A DNA stretch of 64,000 bases. It comes from Acidobacteriota bacterium (GTDB lineage Bacteria > Acidobacteriota > Vicinamibacteria > Vicinamibacterales > UBA2999). The translations under genes and the position numbers were made by a program. The first letter of the stretch is position 1. Each line of letters opens with the position of its first letter. The stretch is from positions 124,001 through 188,000 of the forward strand of contig CAUJDN010000035.1 in assembly GCA_963169195.1 (NCBI GenBank). Reading direction: 5' to 3'. The notes below the pieces were generated by a model. It was not told where the DNA came from. It saw only the letters and a list, made by a program, of their open reading frames with translations, and made no database searches. Shown here one piece after another: positions 25,096 to 35,786 of the stretch.

Positions 25096-25120
25096 GGATA
25101 TACTCATCGCATGAGTATCC
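25096..25120. promoter_or_regulatory. Antitoxin operator/promoter: dyad over -10 and start codon
   Basis: TACTCAT (25101-25107), CGC, ATGAGTA (25111-25117) is a perfect 7-bp dyad, extended outward by GGAT/TCC with a small bulge. It overlaps a -10 TATACT (25099-25104) and the ATG at 25111. Such a site fits autorepression by the ribbon-helix-helix antitoxin. Confidence 0.55.
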
Positions 25121-25365
25121 GGCTGCAGGTCGTCATGGACGAGGCCGAGCTCCGCGAGATCCAGCGCAGCGCGCGGCGTCAGCGGATGACGGTCTCGGAG
25201 TGGGTGCGGAACGCGCTGCGTGCGGCCCGGCGGGCGGAGCCTGGACCGGACCGCGGCCGGAAGCTCGAGGCCATCCGCGCCTCGAGCCGTCACGCCTTTC
25301 CGACGGCGGACATCGATCAGATGCTCGCCGAAATCGCCCGCGGTCGCGCGGAGTCCGACCGGTGA
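25111..25365 (+). CDS. Ribbon-helix-helix antitoxin of a type II toxin-antitoxin pair
   Basis: 84 residues. The N-terminus [41 protein letters not shown] has the strand-helix-helix pattern of MetJ/Arc-type (RHH) DNA-binding antitoxins, with a polar strand followed by the [11 protein letters not shown] helix. The C-terminal tail ([25 protein letters not shown]) is the likely toxin-binding part. It overlaps the PIN toxin gene by 4 nt (GTGA). The start codon sits in a putative operator. Confidence 0.88.
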
Positions 25366-25757
25366 CCTTCGTCGATTCGAACATCCCGATGTACCTGGTC
25401 GGGGCCGCGCATCCCCACAAGGCCGATGCCCAGCGATTGCTCGAGCGCGCGGTCGCAGACGGCGACAAGCTCGTGACGAGCGCCGAGGTCTTCCAGGAGA
25501 TCCTGCACCGCTACACCGCCATCGGCCGGCGCGATGCGATCCAGCCCGCCTGGGATGCCCTCGCCGCCGTGACCGACGAGGTGTTCGCGATCGAGGTGGC
25601 CGACGCCGACCGGGCCCGGGCGATCGTGCTCGAGCGCCAGGCGCTCTCGGCGCGCGATGCACTTCATGCCGCGGTGATGGAGCGGCATGGCGTGACGCGC
25701 ATCCTCAGCTTCGACGCCGGCTTCGACACCCTGCCGGGCCTTACCCGCCTGTACTAA
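25362..25757 (+). CDS. vapC: PIN-domain ribonuclease toxin (VapC type)
   Basis: 131 residues from GTG 25362. PIN motifs: first Asp in [14 protein letters not shown] (Asp5), Glu in [13 protein letters not shown] (about 43), Asp in [17 protein letters not shown] (about 94), and Asp in ILSFDAGFD (about 117). PIN toxins cleave tRNA or other RNA and are held inactive by the partner antitoxin encoded just upstream. The four-base overlap gives translational coupling. It converges with the oxidase gene 33 bp downstream. Confidence 0.9.
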
Positions 25758-25790: not shown

Positions 25791-27035
25791 TCAATCGGCC
25801 GTGTGCCAGTCGAAGAAGCGCTCGGCAGCAGGCGCCACGCGCGGCGGCTCTGAACGCGTGAGGCGTGTTCCGGGCGCCGGCGGCGCCATGCGCGAGAAGA
25901 ACGCGATCGCGTTGTCCACGTTCCGCTTCCGGATCTCCTCGTTCGGCTCCATCGACCAGACGCCCCGCTCCTGCGAGTTGCCGACCACGATGCCGTCGCT
26001 CCGGGGGTTGATGCTCGCATTGCTGTCATCGGCCAGCCGGGCGGACGCCCGGTAGTTCACCTCGGGCTGCGGCACGAGCAGCGTCAGCTGCCCCTTCACC
26101 GGCACCAGCTCCTGGTCGTCGAAGAGCGAGAACGACCCCAGCCCCGTGCAGTTGACGATGACGGGCTCGGGAAGCGCGGCCAGCTCGCGGCGCGACTCGA
26201 AGCGGCGGATGACGACGCGCCCGCCGAACGCGAGGAAGTCCTGCACGAGCGCGTCCATGTAGATGGAGGGCTCGATGGCCAGGTTCGACTGGCGGATCGC
26301 GTACCGCGTCGGGAACGGGTGCTCGCCGGGCCCGAGCACCTCACGATCGCGCCCGGTCCGCAGGGGCTCGGGCAGCAGGTCGCTGTCGCTCCCGCCCCGC
26401 GGGCGCGGGTTGGGATCGTCGGTGGCGTTGTAGCTGTCGATCCAGTAGACGCCGTAGCGCGGGCCGGCCATCAGCTGCAGCTGGCGGTAGGACACCTCGG
26501 CCGCGGTGCGGAACTGCGCATCCCACCCCGGCGTGCGCCGCTCGGGCTCGATGAGTCCAGAAGTGGGCGTGTAGCCCGCCCACGACATGTTGGACGTCGT
26601 GTCGGGCGGCACCGTGGCGGTGTAGATGGTGACGTCGTAGCCGCGGCGTTGCAGCTGCCGGGCGGTGGAAAGACCGGGCGAGCCGCACCCGATGACGGCC
26701 GCACGACGGACGCCGGCCGGCTCCGCCAGCTCTCCCACGAGCGTGCCGCATCCCCACGCCAGCGACATGCCGGCCCCGCCATGCCCGTAGTTGTGGACGA
26801 GCACCTTGTCGTCCAGCTTGTCGGCGCGCAGGACGAAACCACCGTCCCGGTGCGGGCGCAGGCCCACCGTGGTCCGAATCACGCGGTCCCACGACACGCG
26901 CACGGGCGCCAGGTTCACACGCGGGCGAGGGGGCCGCGCCGCCGACACGCGGGGCGGTCCCGCGGCCCGACACCCCCCCAACCCCAGGCCCAGGAGGGCC
27001 GCGCCCCCGGACGCGAGCCACGTACGTCGGTTCAT
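25791..27035 (-). CDS. FAD-dependent D-amino-acid-oxidase-like protein with permuted motif order
   Basis: 414 residues from ATG 27035, chosen for the MNRRTWLASGGAALLGLGLGGC signal (twin-arginine-like, with lipobox Cys22) and a TAAGAT 7 nt upstream. In D-amino-acid oxidases the dinucleotide-binding motif is at the N-terminus and the RPxR...HNYGHGG...G segment at the C-terminus. Here the latter comes first: VGLRPHRDGGFVLR (58-70) and HNYGHGGAGMSLAWGCG (81-97). The Rossmann motif AAVIGCGSPGLSTARQLQRRGYDVTIY (112-138) follows. Later parts keep the family order (VIVNCTGLGSFSLFDDQELVPVKGQ; DGIVVGNSQERGVW). The C-terminus lacks a second HNYGHGG block. It probably oxidises an amino acid or amine in the periplasm; substrate is unknown. 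Confidence 0.85.
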   Translation of the reverse strand: MNRRTWLASGGAALLGLGLGGCRAAGPPRVSAARPPRPRVNLAPVRVSWDRVIRTTVGLRPHRDGGFVLRADKLDDKVLVHNYGHGGAGMSLAWGCGTLVGELAEPAGVRRAAVIGCGSPGLSTARQLQRRGYDVTIYTATVPPDTTSNMSWAGYTPTSGLIEPERRTPGWDAQFRTAAEVSYRQLQLMAGPRYGVYWIDSYNATDDPNPRPRGGSDSDLLPEPLRTGRDREVLGPGEHPFPTRYAIRQSNLAIEPSIYMDALVQDFLAFGGRVVIRRFESRRELAALPEPVIVNCTGLGSFSLFDDQELVPVKGQLTLLVPQPEVNYRASARLADDSNASINPRSDGIVVGNSQERGVWSMEPNEEIRKRNVDNAIAFFSRMAPPAPGTRLTRSEPPRVAPAAERFFDWHTAD

Positions 27036-27109: not shown

Positions 27110-27724
27110 TCACCGCGGCGCCAGCAGCACCTCCACCCAGAACCAGCCGCGCAGGTCCCCCGCCGCGAAACCCACGGCCTGATCATCCGGATACGACGTG
27201 CGAAGGACGTCGCCAATGGCGGCCTCGACCTGCTCCCGCGGCCCATGGCAGGTCTCGCACATCGCCATCTGGCCAATCGGCCGCAACACGCCAACGCGGT
27301 CGCCCAGGTCGAACACCGCCGGCCGGGCGCCCGTGATGGGACGGCCGGCGCTCGACGCCACGGTGCCGGCGGCCCACGCGCGCGGGGCGTTGCGCGGATT
27401 GCGGATCTTGTGGCTGGTCCGGCCAATGGCCAGATCCTGCGCCTTCCCGACCGAGTCGGTCAGTTGCTGCGCCTCGTCACGGCACACCGTGACCGCCGCC
27501 TTCGGTCCGCCGCGGCCCAGCTCCTCCTTCAGTCGGGAGATGAGGGTCAGCTGCAGCTGACGGACCGCGGCGTCGGCCCGGTCCACGGCCGCGGCCACCC
27601 GCGGCGTGGGGGCCGACATGTCGATGGGCCTGGCCGCCTGCGCAGCCGGGGGAGCCTGTGACGACAGGGGGGCGGACGCGCTGGCAAGGAGGGCTGCAAG
27701 GAGGATTCGAGCGTGGGTGCGCAT
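27110..27724 (-). CDS. Exported Tll0287-like (DUF3365) haem-binding protein
   Basis: 204 residues from ATG 27724, with an in-frame GTG two codons earlier. Signal peptide MRTHARILLAALLASASAPLSSQA. The domain around AAVTVCRDEAQQLTDSVGKAQDLAIGRTSHKIRNPRNAPRAWA and a single CETCH haem c site (in MAMCETCHGPREQVEAAIGDVL) match the DUF3365/Tll0287 type, a periplasmic PAS-like fold that binds haem in sensors or small cytochromes. It has no kinase domain here, so it is a free haem protein. A TAACCT hexamer lies 6 nt upstream. Confidence 0.82.
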   Translation of the reverse strand: MRTHARILLAALLASASAPLSSQAPPAAQAARPIDMSAPTPRVAAAVDRADAAVRQLQLTLISRLKEELGRGGPKAAVTVCRDEAQQLTDSVGKAQDLAIGRTSHKIRNPRNAPRAWAAGTVASSAGRPITGARPAVFDLGDRVGVLRPIGQMAMCETCHGPREQVEAAIGDVLRTSYPDDQAVGFAAGDLRGWFWVEVLLAPR

Positions 27725-27730
27725 ACCCAC

Positions 27731-27833: not shown

Positions 27834-29717
27834 ATGCGTCCACGACTTCTCCTGGCCGTGCTGGCGGTGTCCGGCGCGGCGCTCGTCTCCGCCCAGCAGC
27901 CGCCCGCTGATACGCCAAACCCGGTCCGCGCGGCCTACACGAAATACGAGCACATGGTCCCGATGCGGGACGGCGTGAAGCTGTTCACCTCGGTGTACGT
28001 GCCGAAGGCGTGCGATGCCCCCTATCCCATCATCATGCAGCGCACGCCGTACTCCGTCGCGCCGTACGGCATCGACAACTACCGCACGACCATCGGCCCC
28101 TCCGAGCACTTCCTGAAGGAGGGCATCATCGCCGTGTACCAGGACGTGCGCGGGCGCTACCTGTCCGAGGGTCAGTGGGTCGAGGTGCGGCCGCACAACC
28201 CGAAGAAGGGGCCACGCGACATCGACGAGAGCACCGACACGTGGGACACCATCGACTGGCTGGTGAAGAACGTGCCCTGCAACAACGGGCGCGTGGGCAT
28301 GTGGGGCATCTCGTACCCGGGCTTCTACGTGTCGGCCGGCATGATCGACGCCCATCCGGCGCTCGAAGCCGTCTCGCCGCAGGCGCCGGTGACCGACTAC
28401 TACCTGGGCGACGACTCCTTCCACAATGGCGCGTTCATGCTGGCCGCGAACTTCGGCTTCTACTCGAGCTTCAAGCCGCGACCCGAACCCACGCGTCCGC
28501 GGGCCGCCCTGCCCTTCGACTACGGGACACCGAGCGGGTACGAGTTCTACCTGCAGATGGGGCCCCTCTGGGCCGGCGCGGAACGTTACGGCGTGCTCGC
28601 GAACCCGTACTACCGCCTGAACCTCGAGCACACGACGTACGACGACTTCTGGAGAGCGCGGTCCATCTGGAGGCACTTCAAGGGCATCGCGCCCGCCGTC
28701 CTCACCGTGGGTGGGTGGTACGACGCCGAGGATCTCGCCGGGCCGCTGCTGACCTACCGCACGATTCGCGCCGAGAGCCCGTCCACGACGAACCACCTCG
28801 TGATGGGCCCGTGGACGCACGGCAGCTGGGCACGGGACACGGGCCGCACCGTGGGCAACCTCGACTTCGGCCAGGACACCTCCGCCTGGTACCGCGAGCA
28901 CGTGGAGTTCCCGTTCTTCATGCAGCACCTGAAGGACAAGGGTCGGGGCGTGGCCCCCGTCACCATGTACGAGACCGGCACCAATCGCTGGCGCACCTTC
29001 GACGCCTGGCCCCCCTCCACGGCGCAGCGGACGATGTACCTCGCGGCCGGCGGCCTGTTGACCCCGGCGGCGCCGGCGGAAGCCGAGGCCTTCGACGAGT
29101 ACCTGAGCGATCCCAACCGGCCGGTGCCCTATGTCGGCCACGTCCAGATGGGCATGCAGCGCGATTACATGACCGAAGACCAGCGCTTCGCCGCGACGCG
29201 CCCCGACGTCCTCGTCTACGCCACGCCTCCGCTCGAGGAGGACCTGATCGTGCACGGCCCCATCGCCGTGGACCTGCACGTCGCCACCTCGGGCACCGAC
29301 GCCGACTTCGTGGTCAAGGTGATTGACGGGTTCCCGGCCGACTATCCCACGCCCGACTGGAAGGGGCCGACGCCCGAGCCCGCGAACCGCGTGCGGATGG
29401 GTGGCTACCAGCAGCTCGTGCGCGGCGAGCCGTTCCGCGGGAAGTTCCGCCAGAGCTTCGAGAAGCCGGTGCCGTTCGTGCCCAATCAGCCGGATCGCAT
29501 CCGCTTCGACCTGCCCGACGTGGCGCACACGTTCCGGCGTGGCCACCGGCTGATGCTGCACGTCCAGAGCTCCTGGTTCCCGCTGACGGATCGCAATCCA
29601 CAGGTCTTCACCGACATCCCGAAGGCCAGGCCCGAGGAGTTCAAGCCGGCCACCCAGCGCGTCTACAGGAGCCAGGCGCGGCCCTCGTCCATCACGCTGG
29701 TCGTGGGGAAGCCGTAG
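27834..29717 (+). CDS. Exported CocE/NonD-family hydrolase (S15-type alpha/beta hydrolase)
   Basis: 627 residues. Signal peptide MRPRLLLAVLAVSGAALVSAQQ. The catalytic triad is visible: Ser in GMWGISYPGFYVS (about 160), Asp in VGGWYDAEDLAG (about 295) and His in MGPWTHGSWA (about 328). The N-terminal opening EHMVPMRDGVKLFTSVYVP and the C-terminal galactose-binding-like jelly roll (VHGPIAVDLHVATSGTDADFVVKVIDGFP, FRRGHRLMLHVQSSWFP) fit X-Pro dipeptidyl peptidase or cocaine-esterase relatives. It acts on ester or acyl-peptide substrates outside the cytoplasm; substrate is unknown. Divergent from the Tll0287-like gene. Confidence 0.93.
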   Translation: MRPRLLLAVLAVSGAALVSAQQPPADTPNPVRAAYTKYEHMVPMRDGVKLFTSVYVPKACDAPYPIIMQRTPYSVAPYGIDNYRTTIGPSEHFLKEGIIAVYQDVRGRYLSEGQWVEVRPHNPKKGPRDIDESTDTWDTIDWLVKNVPCNNGRVGMWGISYPGFYVSAGMIDAHPALEAVSPQAPVTDYYLGDDSFHNGAFMLAANFGFYSSFKPRPEPTRPRAALPFDYGTPSGYEFYLQMGPLWAGAERYGVLANPYYRLNLEHTTYDDFWRARSIWRHFKGIAPAVLTVGGWYDAEDLAGPLLTYRTIRAESPSTTNHLVMGPWTHGSWARDTGRTVGNLDFGQDTSAWYREHVEFPFFMQHLKDKGRGVAPVTMYETGTNRWRTFDAWPPSTAQRTMYLAAGGLLTPAAPAEAEAFDEYLSDPNRPVPYVGHVQMGMQRDYMTEDQRFAATRPDVLVYATPPLEEDLIVHGPIAVDLHVATSGTDADFVVKVIDGFPADYPTPDWKGPTPEPANRVRMGGYQQLVRGEPFRGKFRQSFEKPVPFVPNQPDRIRFDLPDVAHTFRRGHRLMLHVQSSWFPLTDRNPQVFTDIPKARPEEFKPATQRVYRSQARPSSITLVVGKP

Positions 29718-29756
29718 AGCGCCCCGCCGGGCTGGCACGAATGGAGAGCGCGGACG

Positions 29757-30788
29757 TCAGCCGAGCTCGAACGTCAGCTCGCCGAGCTTCTCCACGCTGC
29801 AGGCGATCCGGTCGCCCGGCTTCAGCCACGCCTGCTTCTCCTTCGGCATGCCCTGGATGACGCCCTGCGGGGTGCCGGTGTAGATGACGTCCCCGGGCTT
29901 CAGCGTGAAGTGGTGAGAGATGTAGCTGATCATCGTCCGCGTGCTGAAGATGAAGTCGGCGGTCGTGGACGACTGGCGGGTTTCGCCGTTGACGCGGCAT
30001 TCGAGCGCGAGGTTGTCGGGGTCGACCTGGTCGGCCGTCACCAGGTAGGGCCCGATGGGCGCGAAGCCGTCGATGGCCTTCCCCACCATCCACTGCCCGC
30101 CGCGCTGGTACTGCAGGTCACGCGCGGTGAAGTCGTTTCCGGTGGCGTAGCCGGCGACAACGGTGAGCGCGTCGGCGTCGGTCACGCGGTGCGCCGTGGC
30201 GCCCATCACGATGACCAGCTCCACCTCGTAGTCGAAGTTCGTGGCCAGGTCCACCGGCAGCGTCACCGTGCCCTTGTGCCGGTTGAGCGACGCGTTGAAC
30301 TTGTTGAACAGCACCGGGTACGCAGGCACGGGCGACCCGATCTCCTCGGCGTGCTTCCGGTAGTTGAGGCCCACGCAGATGATCTTGTCGGGCCGGCCGA
30401 CCAGCGGTCCGTACTCGAGGCCGTCTTCGGCGCGGAACGCGGGCTGCGCCTCGCTGCCGCGCAGCGAGGCCTCGACGACGGCCTGCACGCTGGGGCCGTC
30501 CTCCTGCTGCAGCATCTCGTCCATCGTGGCCGGCGCGTACAGGCCAAGCAGCGACGCCGCGCGCGCCACGTCCAGGATACCCTTGTCCGTCTTCGCGCCC
30601 AGCCGATCCTGGCCCTGCTCTCGGAAGGTCAGCAGCGTCAGGCCCCTGGCCAGCCCCCGCCCCAGCGTCCGCGAGGGCGGCACGCTCGAACCCGGCGCCG
30701 TGGGCGCGCATCCCGCCGCCGCGCCCACGGCTGCCAGTGTGCCCATCGCGCCAGCGTTCCTCAGGAAACCACGTCGATTCGTCCGCAC
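29757..30788 (-). CDS. Tat-exported fumarylacetoacetate-hydrolase-fold protein
   Basis: 343 residues from GTG 30788, with GGAG 9 nt upstream. The N-terminus VRTNRRGFLRNAGAMGTLAAVGAAAGC has a twin-arginine motif and a lipobox-like Cys. The FAH domain has the PDKIICVGLNYRKHAEEIG signature and metal ligands Glu/Glu in NFDYEVELVIVMG and Asp in GNDFTARDLQ, then KPGDVIYTGTPQGV. FAH-fold enzymes are normally cytoplasmic hydrolases or decarboxylases of aromatic catabolism, so the export signal is unusual. The gene is followed on the same strand by nothing for 39 bp before the convergent hydrolase; the VKOR gene lies upstream. Confidence 0.88.
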   Translation of the reverse strand: MRTNRRGFLRNAGAMGTLAAVGAAAGCAPTAPGSSVPPSRTLGRGLARGLTLLTFREQGQDRLGAKTDKGILDVARAASLLGLYAPATMDEMLQQEDGPSVQAVVEASLRGSEAQPAFRAEDGLEYGPLVGRPDKIICVGLNYRKHAEEIGSPVPAYPVLFNKFNASLNRHKGTVTLPVDLATNFDYEVELVIVMGATAHRVTDADALTVVAGYATGNDFTARDLQYQRGGQWMVGKAIDGFAPIGPYLVTADQVDPDNLALECRVNGETRQSSTTADFIFSTRTMISYISHHFTLKPGDVIYTGTPQGVIQGMPKEKQAWLKPGDRIACSVEKLGELTFELG

Positions 30789-30840
30789 GATCACCCACTC
30801 CAATCTCTCAACGCACCTGAATCGCCAATTCCCCGATACC

Positions 30841-30890
30841 CCGGGGCCCCAATCACCCATCACCCGTTCGGCAATCGGCAATCGCTCGTT
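30841..30890. repeat. Short-word repeats in the 118-bp gap
   Basis: The gap between the VKOR and FAH genes holds AATCACCCATCACCC and CGGCAATCGGCAATCG, local repeats of 7 bp. No ORF is supported. Confidence 0.4.
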
Positions 30891-30906
30891 GGACAGCCGC
30901 CACTCC

Positions 30907-31809
30907 CTACGGCGCCGAGGCGGGCCGGGTCGCGGCAGCCAGGTCGAACCCGGTGAGCTGGGCCAGCCGGAGCGGCGACAGTACCTCCTCGTACCGCTTC
31001 CCGGCAATCTCCCACGTCGGGTACGTGTTGATGCGCGCCTCACGGCACTCGGCGGTCTGCGGCGCGCCCTGCCGGGCGCCCATGCTGCACTCGACGTACG
31101 GCAGGCGCCGCGCCGCCACGCCGAACAGCGCCTTCTGGTCCTGGCAGTGCGGGCACCACTCCGCGCCGTACATCTTCGCGCCGGTCTGGGCGAGGTGGAC
31201 GGCCAGCGCACGCAGGGTGGGATCCTCAACGGCGGGCGCCTTCCCCACCAGGCCGATGTAGTTGAGGTGCAGGAACGCGATGATCCCCACGGCCACGGGC
31301 CCCCGGATGCGCAGCCACCGCGGCCACGAGAACCCGGGAATCCCGTCCGGCCGCTGAAACGTGACGACCGTGAAGATGGCGGTCATCAGCGCCAGCGACG
31401 TGAGGCAATAGGGGCAGGTCGCTCCCAGCATCGCCACCGAAACCGTCGTCAGGTACAGGCTGTAGAGCAGGCCGAAGCACGACAGCGTCCACGCCAGGCG
31501 CCACTGCCGGTGAGCGCTCGCGATCCATGCGGTGCCGGCAAGCGCAAGATAGGCCAGCAGGCCCCAGAAGGCGGTGGGCAGGCCCAGGAGCGTGGCCCAT
31601 CGGCTCGACAGGACCAGGTCGCACCCGCTGCCCGCGCTGCAGCCCTGCACCGCCCCACCCGACCAGCTCGTCCACGACAGGTAGCCCGCCAGCGCGACGC
31701 CAGTCACGCTGAGCGCCAGCAGCGGCCAGTTCGGCGTCGTGCCGGACACGACGCTCGCGGCGCCGCCTGCGTCCCGGGGTTCCTTCCTGGCCCTGGCTTT
31801 CCGACCCAT
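30907..31809 (-). CDS. VKOR-thioredoxin fusion, periplasmic disulfide formation
   Basis: 300 residues from ATG 31809. Four or five membrane segments carry a VKOR domain with the outer loop cysteines in GCSAGSGCDLVLSSRWATLLGLP and the quinone-side CxxC in ATCPYCLTSLALM. A thioredoxin-like domain follows (about 215-300), with YGAEWCPHCQDQKALFG and a downstream CREARINTYPTWEI. Such fusions take electrons from substrate thiols to quinones, replacing DsbA/DsbB. Fits the many exported Cys-containing proteins here. A TAGACT lies 7 nt upstream of the start. Confidence 0.94.
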   Translation of the reverse strand: MGRKARARKEPRDAGGAASVVSGTTPNWPLLALSVTGVALAGYLSWTSWSGGAVQGCSAGSGCDLVLSSRWATLLGLPTAFWGLLAYLALAGTAWIASAHRQWRLAWTLSCFGLLYSLYLTTVSVAMLGATCPYCLTSLALMTAIFTVVTFQRPDGIPGFSWPRWLRIRGPVAVGIIAFLHLNYIGLVGKAPAVEDPTLRALAVHLAQTGAKMYGAEWCPHCQDQKALFGVAARRLPYVECSMGARQGAPQTAECREARINTYPTWEIAGKRYEEVLSPLRLAQLTGFDLAAATRPASAP

Positions 31810-31816
31810 GCGCCAG

Positions 31817-31822
31817 AGTCTA
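31817..31822 (-). promoter_or_regulatory. Putative -10 (TAGACT), leaderless geometry
   Basis: TAGACT on the minus strand ends 7 nt before ATG 31809, in the context AGTAGTAGACTCTGGCGC. Confidence 0.45.
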
Positions 31823-31868
31823 CTACTCCCTCGCGGTCGCCACCGATACCGGCGATCGCGCCTCGGTG

Positions 31869-31874
31869 TAAGCT
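31869..31874 (+). promoter_or_regulatory. Putative -10 (TAAGCT) for the DsrE gene
   Basis: TAAGCT in the context TCGGTGTAAGCTGAATCG, 59 nt before ATG 31934. The same GGTGTAAGCTG word precedes the SOD gene. Confidence 0.4.
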
Positions 31875-31933
31875 GAATCGCCTCGGGGGCCGCGAAGGCG
31901 CGGCCCCGGGCGTCACGACCGAGGAGGCCGACG

Positions 31934-32470
31934 ATGCGACGAACGGTGATGGTGCTGACGCTGGGCGCGACGTTGATGGGGACCGGCCTGGCCGCGGCCC
32001 AGGCGCTGCCCGTCCCCGGAGTCGACCCCGCGCGCGATGTTCCCGGTGCGAAGGAGATGCCGAATCCGAACGTCGCGCACAAGGTCGTCTTCGACCTCGC
32101 CACGGCGAACCCGAAGGACGCGAAGGTGCACCCGATGCTGCAGGCCGTGGCCCGCTACGTGAACACGCTCGCAAAGACGGGCGTGCCGGCCGCCAGTCGC
32201 AAGGTGGCCCTCGTCTTCCACCAGGGCTCGACCGACTACATCCTCAGGAACGACGCCTACAAGGCCCGGCACGAGGGCCAGGACAACCCCAACCTGCCCA
32301 TGATCCAGGCGCTGAAGCAGGCGGGCGTGGACTTCCGCGTCTGCGGTCAGGCCGCCCTCGGGCGGAAGATCGACCCGAAGGACATCACGCCCGAAGTGCA
32401 GCTGGATCTGTGGGCGCTCACCACCATCATCGCGTTGCAGCAGCAGGGCTACGTGCTGGTCGCGCCGTAG
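31934..32470 (+). CDS. Exported DsrE/DsrF-like protein
   Basis: 178 residues with a good ribosome-binding site (GAGGAGG, about 7 nt upstream of ATG 31934). Signal peptide MRRTVMVLTLGATLMGTGLAAAQA. The fold pattern HKVVFDLATANPKDAKVHPMLQAVARYVNTLAKTGV, KVALVFHQGSTDYILRND, MIQALKQAGVDFRVCGQAALGRK and LDLWALTTIIALQQQGYVLVAP matches DsrE-like sulfur-relay proteins, with the single conserved Cys in RVCGQA. Exported versions have been linked to thiol or sulfur handling. Here it sits next to the VKOR-Trx gene, divergently. Confidence 0.87.
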   Translation: MRRTVMVLTLGATLMGTGLAAAQALPVPGVDPARDVPGAKEMPNPNVAHKVVFDLATANPKDAKVHPMLQAVARYVNTLAKTGVPAASRKVALVFHQGSTDYILRNDAYKARHEGQDNPNLPMIQALKQAGVDFRVCGQAALGRKIDPKDITPEVQLDLWALTTIIALQQQGYVLVAP

Positions 32471-32474
32471 GAGT

Positions 32475-32523
32475 TTCTCACTTCTCACTTCTCACTTCTC
32501 ACTTCTCACTTCCCACTTCTCTT
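32475..32523. repeat. 7-bp tandem repeat (TTCTCAC)n before the M28 gene
   Basis: About seven copies of TTCTCAC, one altered to TTCCCAC, fill the whole 54-bp gap between the DsrE stop codon and ATG 32525. The strand is pure pyrimidine apart from the A, so no Shine-Dalgarno exists for the M28 start. Confidence 0.92.
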
Positions 32524-32524
32524 C

Positions 32525-34672
32525 ATGAGACTCCCGCTCCTCCTGTCCACCGCCATCCTGGCGGCCGGCTGCACCTCCAGCACGCCGCAGCCCATCGTCC
32601 GCACACGCCTCGGCTACACGCAGGCGTCGTCTGCCGCCAGCGCCTCGCTCGAGCAGCGCTTCCAGGCGACGGTGAAGGCCGACTCGATGTCGGCACTGCA
32701 CGGGCAGCTGACCGCGCGACCACACCCGGCGGGTTCGCCCGGCACGGCGGAACTGGTGAAACACCTGCAGCAGACCCTGGCGGCCTTCGGCCTCGAGGTC
32801 GAGACGCACGAATACCAGGTGCTGCTGTCGAGCCCGCGCACGGTCGAGGTCACGATGACCGCGCCGGCGCGTCGCCGCCTGAGCGTCGACGAGCCTGCCA
32901 TGACGGCCGATCCCACGTCGTCACACCCCGAGCTCGGCGGCGGATACATCTCCTATTCCGCGTCGGGCACGGCGTCGGGCCAGGTGGTCTACGTGAACTA
33001 CGGCCTGCCGCCGGACTACGCCGAGCTCGAAAAGCTCGGTGTCTCGGTGAAGAACCGAATCGTGGTGGCGCGTTACGGGCGCAGCCATCGTGCGGTGAAG
33101 GCACACACGGCCCAGCAGGCCGGCGCACGCGCGCTCATCCTCTACAGCGACCCGGCTGACGATGGCTTCGTGAAGGGCCCCGCCTGGCCCGAAGGCTACT
33201 GGCGCGGCGAGCACATGCTGCAGCGCGGCAACGCCAAGTACAGCTGGTACTGGCACGGCGATGCGCTCACGCCGGGCGTGGCCGCCACTGCCAGCGCGCC
33301 ACGCATCGACGTCGCGACGGCACCAACCCTTCCGAAGATCCCGGTGGTGGCCCTCAGCTGGGGCGAGGCGCAGCACCTGCTGTCGTCGCTCCGCGGCCCC
33401 GAGGCGCCGGCACCCTTTCGCGGCGGGTTGCCCTTCACGTATCACGTCGGCCCGGGGGCCACGGCCGTCACGGTCTCGGTGGACATGGATCAGCGGCTCG
33501 GCCCGATCTACAACGTGGTGGCGTCGCTCCGCGGCACCGCGACGCCGGAGCGCACCATCCTTTTCGGCACGCATCACGACGCGTGGACCTTCGGCGGCGT
33601 CGATCCCGGCACCGGCGCGACGGCGCTGCTGGAGGTCGCGAAGGGCCTGGGCGTGCTGGCCAAGACGGGGTGGCGGCCCGCACGCACCATCGCGTTTGCG
33701 TTCTGGGACGCGGAGGAGCTGGGGCTCGTGGGCTCCACCGAGTACGCCGAGGACCAGCGCGATCGCCTGAAGGACCAGCTCGTGATGTACGTGAACATCG
33801 ACATGTACATGAAGGGCCGGTTCGACCCGGGCGGCGTGCCCTCGCTGCGGGCGTTCGTCGCGGACGTGGTCAAGGACGTGCCCGGCGGCGCCGGCACGGT
33901 CTACGAGGGCTGGCAGGCTTCGGAGTGGGCGCGGAAGCCCGCGGCCGCGCGGCAGGGTGACCAGGCAGCGTTCGCGCCGGACCTGAAGCCGCTCGGCAGC
34001 GGCGCGGACTTCGTGCCGTTCCAGGATCACCTCGGCGTGCCCACGCTCGCCATCGAGTTCATCGGCGAGAACGGCTACGCCTTCGGCACCTATCACTCGA
34101 ACTACGACTCACGCGCGTACGCGGAGAAGATCGCCGACCCGGGCTTCGCACAGGGCGTCACGATGGCGCAGGTCCTGGGCACCCTGGCGCTCAGGATGAG
34201 CGAGGCCGACGTGCTGCCCTTCCGCTTCTCGCACTACGCCACGAAGCTGGGCGAGGCGGTGAGCGCCGCCGAGGGATGGGCGCGGGACGCCGGTGTCACC
34301 GTGGACGTGACGCCGCTCCGCCAGCGCGCCGCGGCCGTCGGACAGGCGGCCCTGGCCCTCGAGGCCGCCATCGACGGGCGGCTCGCCGCCGGCGACATCC
34401 CGCGCGACGCGCTGCCCGCGCTCAACGATCGCCTCGCGCGCATGGAGCAGCAGCTGGCCGACGATGACGGCGCGCCGGAGTCGAAGTGGTACCGGCACGT
34501 CTTCTACGGCTGGAACATCTACTCGATGTACGACGGTCAGCCGTTCCCCGGCCTGGGTGAGGCGCTGCGTCTGAAGGACCAGGCCCGCGTCACGCGCGAG
34601 TTGGGCCGCATCGAGCGCGCGCTGGACCGCATGAACTCGGAGCTCGACGCCGCACTCGCGCTCGTCCGCTGA
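32525..34672 (+). CDS. M28 peptidase of the glutamate carboxypeptidase II type (lipoprotein)
   Basis: 715 residues. Lipoprotein signal MRLPLLLSTAILAAGC. Domains: peptidase M28 interrupted by a PA domain (about 125-270: GQVVYVNYGLPPDYAEL, VRVVARYGRSHRAVKAHTAQQAGARALILYSDP-like pattern) and a C-terminal transferrin-receptor-like dimerisation domain (about 580-715). Zinc ligands: His in FGTHHDAWTFGG, Asp in GVDPGTGATALLE, Glu pair in WDAEELGLVGSTEY, Asp in VNIDMYMKG and His in GTYHSNYDS. Substrates of the family are acidic C-terminal dipeptides. Ends 4 bp before the convergent M14 gene. Confidence 0.93.
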   Translation: MRLPLLLSTAILAAGCTSSTPQPIVRTRLGYTQASSAASASLEQRFQATVKADSMSALHGQLTARPHPAGSPGTAELVKHLQQTLAAFGLEVETHEYQVLLSSPRTVEVTMTAPARRRLSVDEPAMTADPTSSHPELGGGYISYSASGTASGQVVYVNYGLPPDYAELEKLGVSVKNRIVVARYGRSHRAVKAHTAQQAGARALILYSDPADDGFVKGPAWPEGYWRGEHMLQRGNAKYSWYWHGDALTPGVAATASAPRIDVATAPTLPKIPVVALSWGEAQHLLSSLRGPEAPAPFRGGLPFTYHVGPGATAVTVSVDMDQRLGPIYNVVASLRGTATPERTILFGTHHDAWTFGGVDPGTGATALLEVAKGLGVLAKTGWRPARTIAFAFWDAEELGLVGSTEYAEDQRDRLKDQLVMYVNIDMYMKGRFDPGGVPSLRAFVADVVKDVPGGAGTVYEGWQASEWARKPAAARQGDQAAFAPDLKPLGSGADFVPFQDHLGVPTLAIEFIGENGYAFGTYHSNYDSRAYAEKIADPGFAQGVTMAQVLGTLALRMSEADVLPFRFSHYATKLGEAVSAAEGWARDAGVTVDVTPLRQRAAAVGQAALALEAAIDGRLAAGDIPRDALPALNDRLARMEQQLADDDGAPESKWYRHVFYGWNIYSMYDGQPFPGLGEALRLKDQARVTRELGRIERALDRMNSELDAALALVR

Positions 34673-34676
34673 CCTT

Positions 34677-35786
34677 CTACAGTGGCCCCTTCGCGGGTAT
34701 GCCGATGGTGACCACGGCCTCGCCAGCCCTGACCGGGGGACCCGTGAGGCCGTACATCACATAACCGTCCACGGGCGAGACGATGCGCTCCCGCTCGCGG
34801 CCCGCATAGTCGGTGACCGTTCCTATCAGGTCGCCCTTCCTCACCGTCCGCCCCGTCGTCGCCACCGGGGTGTAGATGCCGGTGACGGTTGCCGTCGGAT
34901 CCGCTGTCCCCTCGAACCACCGGAGATCGGCACGCGACGGATCCGGAGCCCCCGGCATCATCTTCAGCACCCGCAGCAGGTTGTCCACGCCCTTCACGAT
35001 CGCGTCCACGAACGAGGCGTCGCGCCGGCCGTTCTCCCCAATCTCGATGAGCACCGTGGGCTTGCCGTCGGCCACCGCCTGCCGGTTCAACGAGCGGCCG
35101 GAGTCGACCTGGGCCTGCGTCTCCATCGAGTACTTCACGATGTTCTGGAGGCCGAAAGCGAGCCCGATATCACGCGACCTCGCGTACTGTGCCGCGGCGA
35201 GCCTCCCGCCATAGATTCCCGCAAAGGCCTCGAGCCATTCGGCCCCGTCTCCGCTGTGCAGCTCGACGTGGAGGTCGCTCCGGCGGATCACCTCGCGTGT
35301 CAGCACCCAGGCGATGTGCTCGGTCTGGGTCCCGTCCGCCTTGCCGGGAAAGACACGGTTCAGGTTCCTCCGGTCGAACGGGTTCACATACGGCACCCGA
35401 TGCTCGAAGGCGGCAACGTGGGCCAGGCGCACGAGGATCACGGTGCCCGCCAGCCGGCCCGGGTCGATGCGAGTCAGGAGCTGCTGCCCGGCCAGGATCG
35501 GCGGGAACTCGTAGCCGTGCACCCCGGCGGTCAGGGCCAGCACCGGACCGGCGCCAGCGCCGTGGAACACGGTCACCGGGACGATGGTGGCTGGGTCGGC
35601 GGGCCCCGCAGGCACGGGGATGTCAATGTCGGCCCGTTGGCCGGCGGAAACGCCCTGACCGGCCAGCATGAAGGGTGCCCGCGGCTGAACATGACCGTTG
35701 ACGCGGACGCCGGGCCCCATCCCGACCACCAGGGCCGCTACGGCGCCAAGAGCCAGCGGTGACAGGGGTAGTCTCATGGGACCCAT
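34677..35786 (-). CDS. Exported M14-type succinylglutamate desuccinylase/aspartoacylase-like protein
   Basis: 369 residues from ATG 35786, with a second ATG at 35777. Signal peptide LPLSPLALGAVAALVVGMGPGVRV. Zinc site: HGYEFPP (His and Glu) and His in HVELHSGDGAEW, with the Glu of TVLIEIGENG as likely catalytic residue. Motif NPFDRRNLNRVFPG is typical of the AstE/AspA branch. The C-terminal 90 residues form a beta-barrel cap (TGIYTPVATTGRTVRKGDLIGTVTDYAG). Family enzymes remove acyl groups from amino acids. Signal peptide suggests periplasmic action. Divergent from the PBP gene. Confidence 0.88.
   Translation of the reverse strand: MGPMRLPLSPLALGAVAALVVGMGPGVRVNGHVQPRAPFMLAGQGVSAGQRADIDIPVPAGPADPATIVPVTVFHGAGAGPVLALTAGVHGYEFPPILAGQQLLTRIDPGRLAGTVILVRLAHVAAFEHRVPYVNPFDRRNLNRVFPGKADGTQTEHIAWVLTREVIRRSDLHVELHSGDGAEWLEAFAGIYGGRLAAAQYARSRDIGLAFGLQNIVKYSMETQAQVDSGRSLNRQAVADGKPTVLIEIGENGRRDASFVDAIVKGVDNLLRVLKMMPGAPDPSRADLRWFEGTADPTATVTGIYTPVATTGRTVRKGDLIGTVTDYAGRERERIVSPVDGYVMYGLTGPPVRAGEAVVTIGIPAKGPL

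Follow-up and report, generated by a model that had tools for sequence, protein, structure and literature searches.

The window analyzed here, i.e., a stretch of 64,000 nucleotides from a draft acidobacterial genome (135 contigs; the host is referred to as a soil bacterium), carries a gene on the minus strand (25791..27035) that very probably encodes a genuine, naturally occurring circular permutant of the D-amino-acid oxidase/D-aspartate oxidase (DAAO/DASPO) family, a member of a bacterial subfamily that appears to have arisen once. This assessment derives from sequence comparisons and covers the permutation, not the substrate. DAAO is a classic flavoenzyme that is widely used in biotechnology. 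In the canonical DAAO/DASPO architecture, the Rossmann motif is N-terminal and the Arg/YGHGG block is C-terminal. The window protein has the features of the family, i.e., the GxGxxG FAD motif, the GxRPxR arginine and the YGHGGxG signature, but since the order of the segments is reversed it is a permuted relative and not a canonical member. Both GxRPxR and YGHGGxG have been published as signatures of bacterial DAAOs (PMC9844085). Circular permutation as such is well known (PMC3320104); our search of the open-access literature found neither a permuted DAAO or glycine oxidase nor any other permuted member of the DAO superfamily. We consider it probable that these enzymes form an undescribed, once-arisen, cross-phylum subfamily of permuted DAAO-like enzymes, mostly exported lipoproteins, that pass as 'FAD-dependent oxidoreductase'.

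The open reading frame (P0001) is intact, with an ATG start and 414 amino acids followed by a stop codon, and its parts, all on the minus strand, can be assigned as follows. Residues 1-24 (26964..27035) make up a signal peptide region with an RR motif and a lipobox cysteine. Residues 50-105 (26721..26888), located near the N-terminus here, correspond in PDB matches to the C-terminus of DAAO, including the GxRPxR strand, NYGHGG, WG and a helix. Within this block, residues 57-70 read VGLRPHRDGGFVLR; GLRPHR with the substrate arginine, as found in DAAO endings, lies inside the first 110 residues. Arg60 (26856..26858) aligns with the substrate-carboxylate arginine, R283 in mammalian DAAO and R285 in RgDAAO. 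HNYGHGG occupies residues 81-87 (26775..26795); residues 81-89 are HNYGHGGAG, and residues 81-97 run HNYGHGG...WGCG. The permutation junction, where the family C-terminus is joined to the N-terminus, was placed by the rotation scan described below at residues 104-111 (26703..26726). Residues 110-383 (25887..26708) extend from the start of the FAD Rossmann region up to and including the helix that, in ordinary DAAOs, comes before the GxRPxR strand, corresponding to positions 23-305 of 7ct4; residues 112-383 match Pfam DAO (2.3e-28). Residues 112-128 are AAVIGCGSPGLSTARQL, with the FAD Rossmann motif GCGSPG at 116-121. A new C-terminal tail, residues 384-414 (25794..25886), is variable among relatives and was modeled with low confidence (pLDDT about 30).

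The initial annotation had proposed that the substrate block precedes the Rossmann motif, and this domain order was borne out by motif positions, phmmer, profile matches and a rotation scan. In a phmmer search of the PDB, residues 52-105 of the window protein matched residues 320-373 of Rasamsonia DAAO (7ct4), and residues 111-389 matched residues 25-314 of the same chain. The block at 50-105 also matched human DASPO (280-336) and the DAAO 8hy5 (295-352). Human DAAO was nearly all accounted for, with profile positions 112-362 equivalent to its residues 2-255 and positions 50-104 to residues 272-329. For the profile search of the PDB, a profile built from ten permutants (A2) was used; its full two-part matches were DAAO/DASPO chains only, always in the opposite order, and neither phmmer nor this profile found a collinear, permuted-order chain in the PDB.

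In the rotation scan, the segment 41-390 was rotated at each residue in turn, and every version was aligned with a set of ten bacterial DAAOs of ordinary order. Alignment scores averaged 197 for the sequence as encoded versus 294.6 for the best rotation, and shuffled sequences scored about 37. The optimum corresponded to a cut before residues 106-108, with a plateau at 104-111, and because it falls there, the join is the family's own C-to-N meeting point, as had been claimed at the outset. Four ordinary DAAOs subjected to the same scan scored best uncut, or equally well within one unit. Neither GxRPxR nor YGHGG occurs a second time further downstream in the window protein, in agreement with the earlier statement that a second substrate block is absent from the C-terminus. 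Thus, both segments are homologous to the parent family, their order is swapped and there is no second copy. The proposed search for homologues with the same motif order found them: the order was identical in 45/45 de-duplicated permutant sequences, and every sequence caught by the motif-order scan was either permuted or ordinary, with zero mixed cases.

Could the order have resulted from an assembly chimera, a frameshift or an annotation artefact? The draft state of the source genome and frameshifts in some relatives (L012 and L052) might point that way, but intact same-order homologues are present across dozens of genomes, among them genomes in a single contig as well as annotated plasmids, and because the permuted order recurs across genomes, we regard this reading as refuted, with a negligible residual probability. 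The source genome itself holds three copies of the permuted gene, and nine further acidobacterial contigs show the permuted order; on one of these contigs (L011:2801-6385), three permuted genes are arranged in tandem in identical order and orientation. A profile census gave collinear matches across block and core (E < 1e-100), and hence the permutant, in 26 of the 297 Acidobacteriota genomes sampled. Seven other census genomes encode ordinary-order DAAOs, in which the match to profile positions 109-373 comes first, followed by that to about 47-108. These seven genomes serve as an internal control for order, and no genome in the 297-genome census was listed with both permuted and ordinary DAAO. 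Beyond Acidobacteriota, permutants were found in records of Niveispirillum, Kozakia, Rhizobium, Bradyrhizobium and Nonomuraea (Alphaproteobacteria and Actinomycetota), where they are annotated merely as FAD-dependent oxidoreductase.

One Mesorhizobium copy (L052:3974-5037) is annotated as two overlapping genes. A split, two-gene permutant was considered for this locus and rejected; because the two frames meet within the Rossmann motif, it looks like a frameshift. Scans of viral sequences yielded only two near-identical permutant contigs. These IMG/VR contigs (L018 and L019) hold a permutant of the clade without a signal peptide and could be mis-sorted bacterial DNA.

Phylogenetic analysis was carried out with de-rotated permutants together with ordinary bacterial, fungal and human enzymes (the fungal and human rows being aligned segments from the PDB profile search) and with a DadA-type sequence as outgroup. 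All 39 permuted rows formed one clade with support of 100/99. An earlier tree lacking eukaryotic sequences also gave a single permuted clade (96/94). When rooted on the one distant DadA-type outgroup, the permuted clade was nested among ordinary DAAOs, a placement that is less firm than the clade itself because the outgroup branch is long. The simplest reading of these trees is that a single derived permutation appears to have occurred long ago and then spread over phyla.

A similar order could be produced by domain shuffling, i.e., acquisition of an N-terminal block from another DAAO and loss of the original C-terminal block, as opposed to tandem duplication, fusion and trimming. The block comprises only about 56 residues, and the two routes leave the same kind of sequence. 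However, the join and the new termini leave the chain almost complete, with little of it lost or present twice, and the permutants form one clade; we therefore judge shuffling unlikely, and either route ends in a circular permutation.

A structure model of the permutant was built from a shallow alignment of 13 sequences (that of the window protein plus 12 from relatives, of which one is truncated) and reached a pLDDT of 72 and a pTM of 0.73; a single-sequence prediction gave a pLDDT of 33.5 only. The first 33 Foldseek matches of the 13-permutant model in the PDB were all DAAO/DASPO. TM-scores to these proteins were about 0.5-0.56, with the block at 50-105 not superposed; such values are expected, as Foldseek aligns in chain order only and a sequential aligner gains nothing from a block that has moved. 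In the trimmed model, helix 57-74 (residues 90-107) leads into the first Rossmann strand within four residues, so the fused termini must be close together. A short run of residues connects the canonical C-terminus, the helix after NYGHGG, with strand beta-1 of the FAD Rossmann motif at the canonical N-terminus, and the new termini open in the loop between a late helix and the GxRPxR strand. Because the set of strands and helices is unchanged, the permutant should fold as a DAAO. The analysis demonstrates motif order, junction, homology, the single clade, the conserved Arg and the signal motif; from these we infer the three-dimensional fold, FAD occupancy, export, the D-amino-acid substrate and the electron acceptor.

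Among characterized enzymes, DAAO (EC 1.4.3.3), represented by Rasamsonia emersonii 7ct4, Rhodotorula gracilis 1c0i and the mammalian enzymes, shares the FAD Rossmann region, the GxRPxR arginine and NYGHGG with the window protein and is homologous to it over both segments. It differs in that the segment order is reversed in the window protein, which in addition has the carboxylate-site Tyr replaced and carries an export signal. D-aspartate oxidase gave both the best phmmer E-value (human, 6rkf) and the best Foldseek match (Cryptococcus humicola, 9vpf); it has the ordinary order, and its acidic-substrate arginine, R237, is Gln in the window protein. Ordinary bacterial DAAOs of Acidobacteriota and Actinomycetota (L046-L049 and L091-L096) have the same signatures as the permutants, in ordinary order. 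Glycine oxidase ThiO, another DAO-superfamily enzyme, gave a weak NCBIfam match (1.7e-9; 37 bits versus a cutoff of 250.8). ThiO and the DadA-type D-amino-acid dehydrogenase, which is also a DAO-superfamily member and served only as outgroup, have the ordinary order.

The FAD motif, the substrate arginine and NYGHGG are retained. The Arg60 equivalent is R in all 39 aligned permutants and in 16/16 ordinary DAAOs, and the Gly of HGG is kept in 39/39 permutants. The carboxylate-binding tyrosine (Y223 in RgDAAO, Y228 in the human enzyme) is Ser341 in the window protein; this position is variable, with the tyrosine retained in 12 of the 39 permutants. DAAO chemistry consists of hydride transfer to the flavin and does not require an acid-base residue, so the replacement need not abolish activity. 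A survey of bacterial DAAOs likewise reported that this tyrosine is not strictly conserved (PMC9844085). Substrate specificity probably differs from that of known DAAOs, and a D-amino-acid substrate seems marginally favored.

A possible, if somewhat doubtful, alternative is that the permuted oxidoreductase fold supports other chemistry, acting on another amine or carboxylate, or passing electrons to a respiratory acceptor alone in a dehydrogenase reaction. It would fit with the missing active-site tyrosine and variable lid region in the clade of the window protein, as well as with a cytochrome c gene adjoining the Kozakia permutant, a haem-motif gene upstream in the window and a thiamine-pyrophosphate (TPP) enzyme gene next to members of the rhizobial/actinobacterial clade. 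Against it stand the retention of Arg, NYGHGG and the FAD motif, and the rarity of haem-motif (CxxCH) neighbors, which occur at just 5 of 36 permutant loci. The upstream gene in the window (27110..27730, minus strand, co-oriented) encodes a Tll0287-like protein (PF11845, 2.6e-12) that contains the haem motif CETCH; it is a possible electron partner and is not conserved. Clustering of neighbors at the Acidobacteriota permutant loci did not reveal a widely shared partner gene, nor did it find at permutant loci a conserved neighborhood pointing to D-amino acids. The idea of an operon partner was dropped, as no neighbor is widely shared and haem-motif neighbors are rare.

An export signal had also been proposed for this protein. 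At the motif level the proposal holds, as MNRRTWLASGGAALLGLGLGGC comprises RR, a hydrophobic stretch and a lipobox Cys and looks like a Tat-type lipoprotein signal; these features are common to most relatives. An RR (Tat-type) signal was found in 41 of the 45 permutants, and 33 of 45 matched the lipobox pattern used. Such a signal suggests that the holoenzyme is exported through Tat in folded form and anchored to a membrane. One clade, comprising the rhizobial and actinobacterial permutants, is missing the signal; the idea that export lies behind the permutation was therefore not adopted, since it does not explain the permuted order in this clade.

For the circular permutant, a working scheme can be outlined. 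FAD would be bound at GCGSPG, and Arg60 would hold a carboxylate-bearing substrate in place so that hydride can pass to the flavin. Because the new N-terminus bears an RR lipoprotein signal, the protein would probably be exported folded through Tat and remain anchored in the envelope. There, it may oxidize a D-amino acid or a related amino acid. The Ser at the tyrosine position and the lack of a conserved neighborhood pointing to D-amino acids weigh against this reading. The electron acceptor could be oxygen or a respiratory carrier, the latter being considered given the occasional haem-protein neighbors. A natural permutant shows where the DAAO fold tolerates new termini and offers a scaffold, ready for use, whose N-terminus is available for attachment. 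The permutation also explains truncated or split profile matches for these proteins. As one phylum has both orders, its cost or benefit is directly testable by comparison of enzymes.

Several further features of the loci were observed. On a Kozakia plasmid (L016:1-12951), the permutant is accompanied by genes for cytochrome c, a CocE/NonD hydrolase, serine hydrolases, a DadA-type oxidoreductase and a TonB receptor, a cluster that suggests the use of D-amino-acid-containing peptides. In the second, signal-less permuted clade (L013, L015, L017 and L052), the permutant adjoins the TPP enzyme gene in both rhizobia and Nonomuraea; in L013 and L017 a gene annotated as FAD-binding oxidoreductase (of the berberine-bridge type in L013) comes before it, and these genes may form a small pathway. 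In the window, a small gene and the PIN-domain gene that comes after it (PF01850, 8.6e-18) resemble a VapBC-type toxin-antitoxin pair (25111-25757, plus strand). A run of hydrolases (27834-35786) comprises an S15 peptidase, an M28 peptidase with a TFR dimer domain and an AstE/AspA-type deacylase. The S15-family gene (27834..29717, plus strand; PF02129, 5.1e-53), of the X-Pro dipeptidyl-peptidase/CocE-NonD type, also has counterparts near the permutants in L016 and L085.
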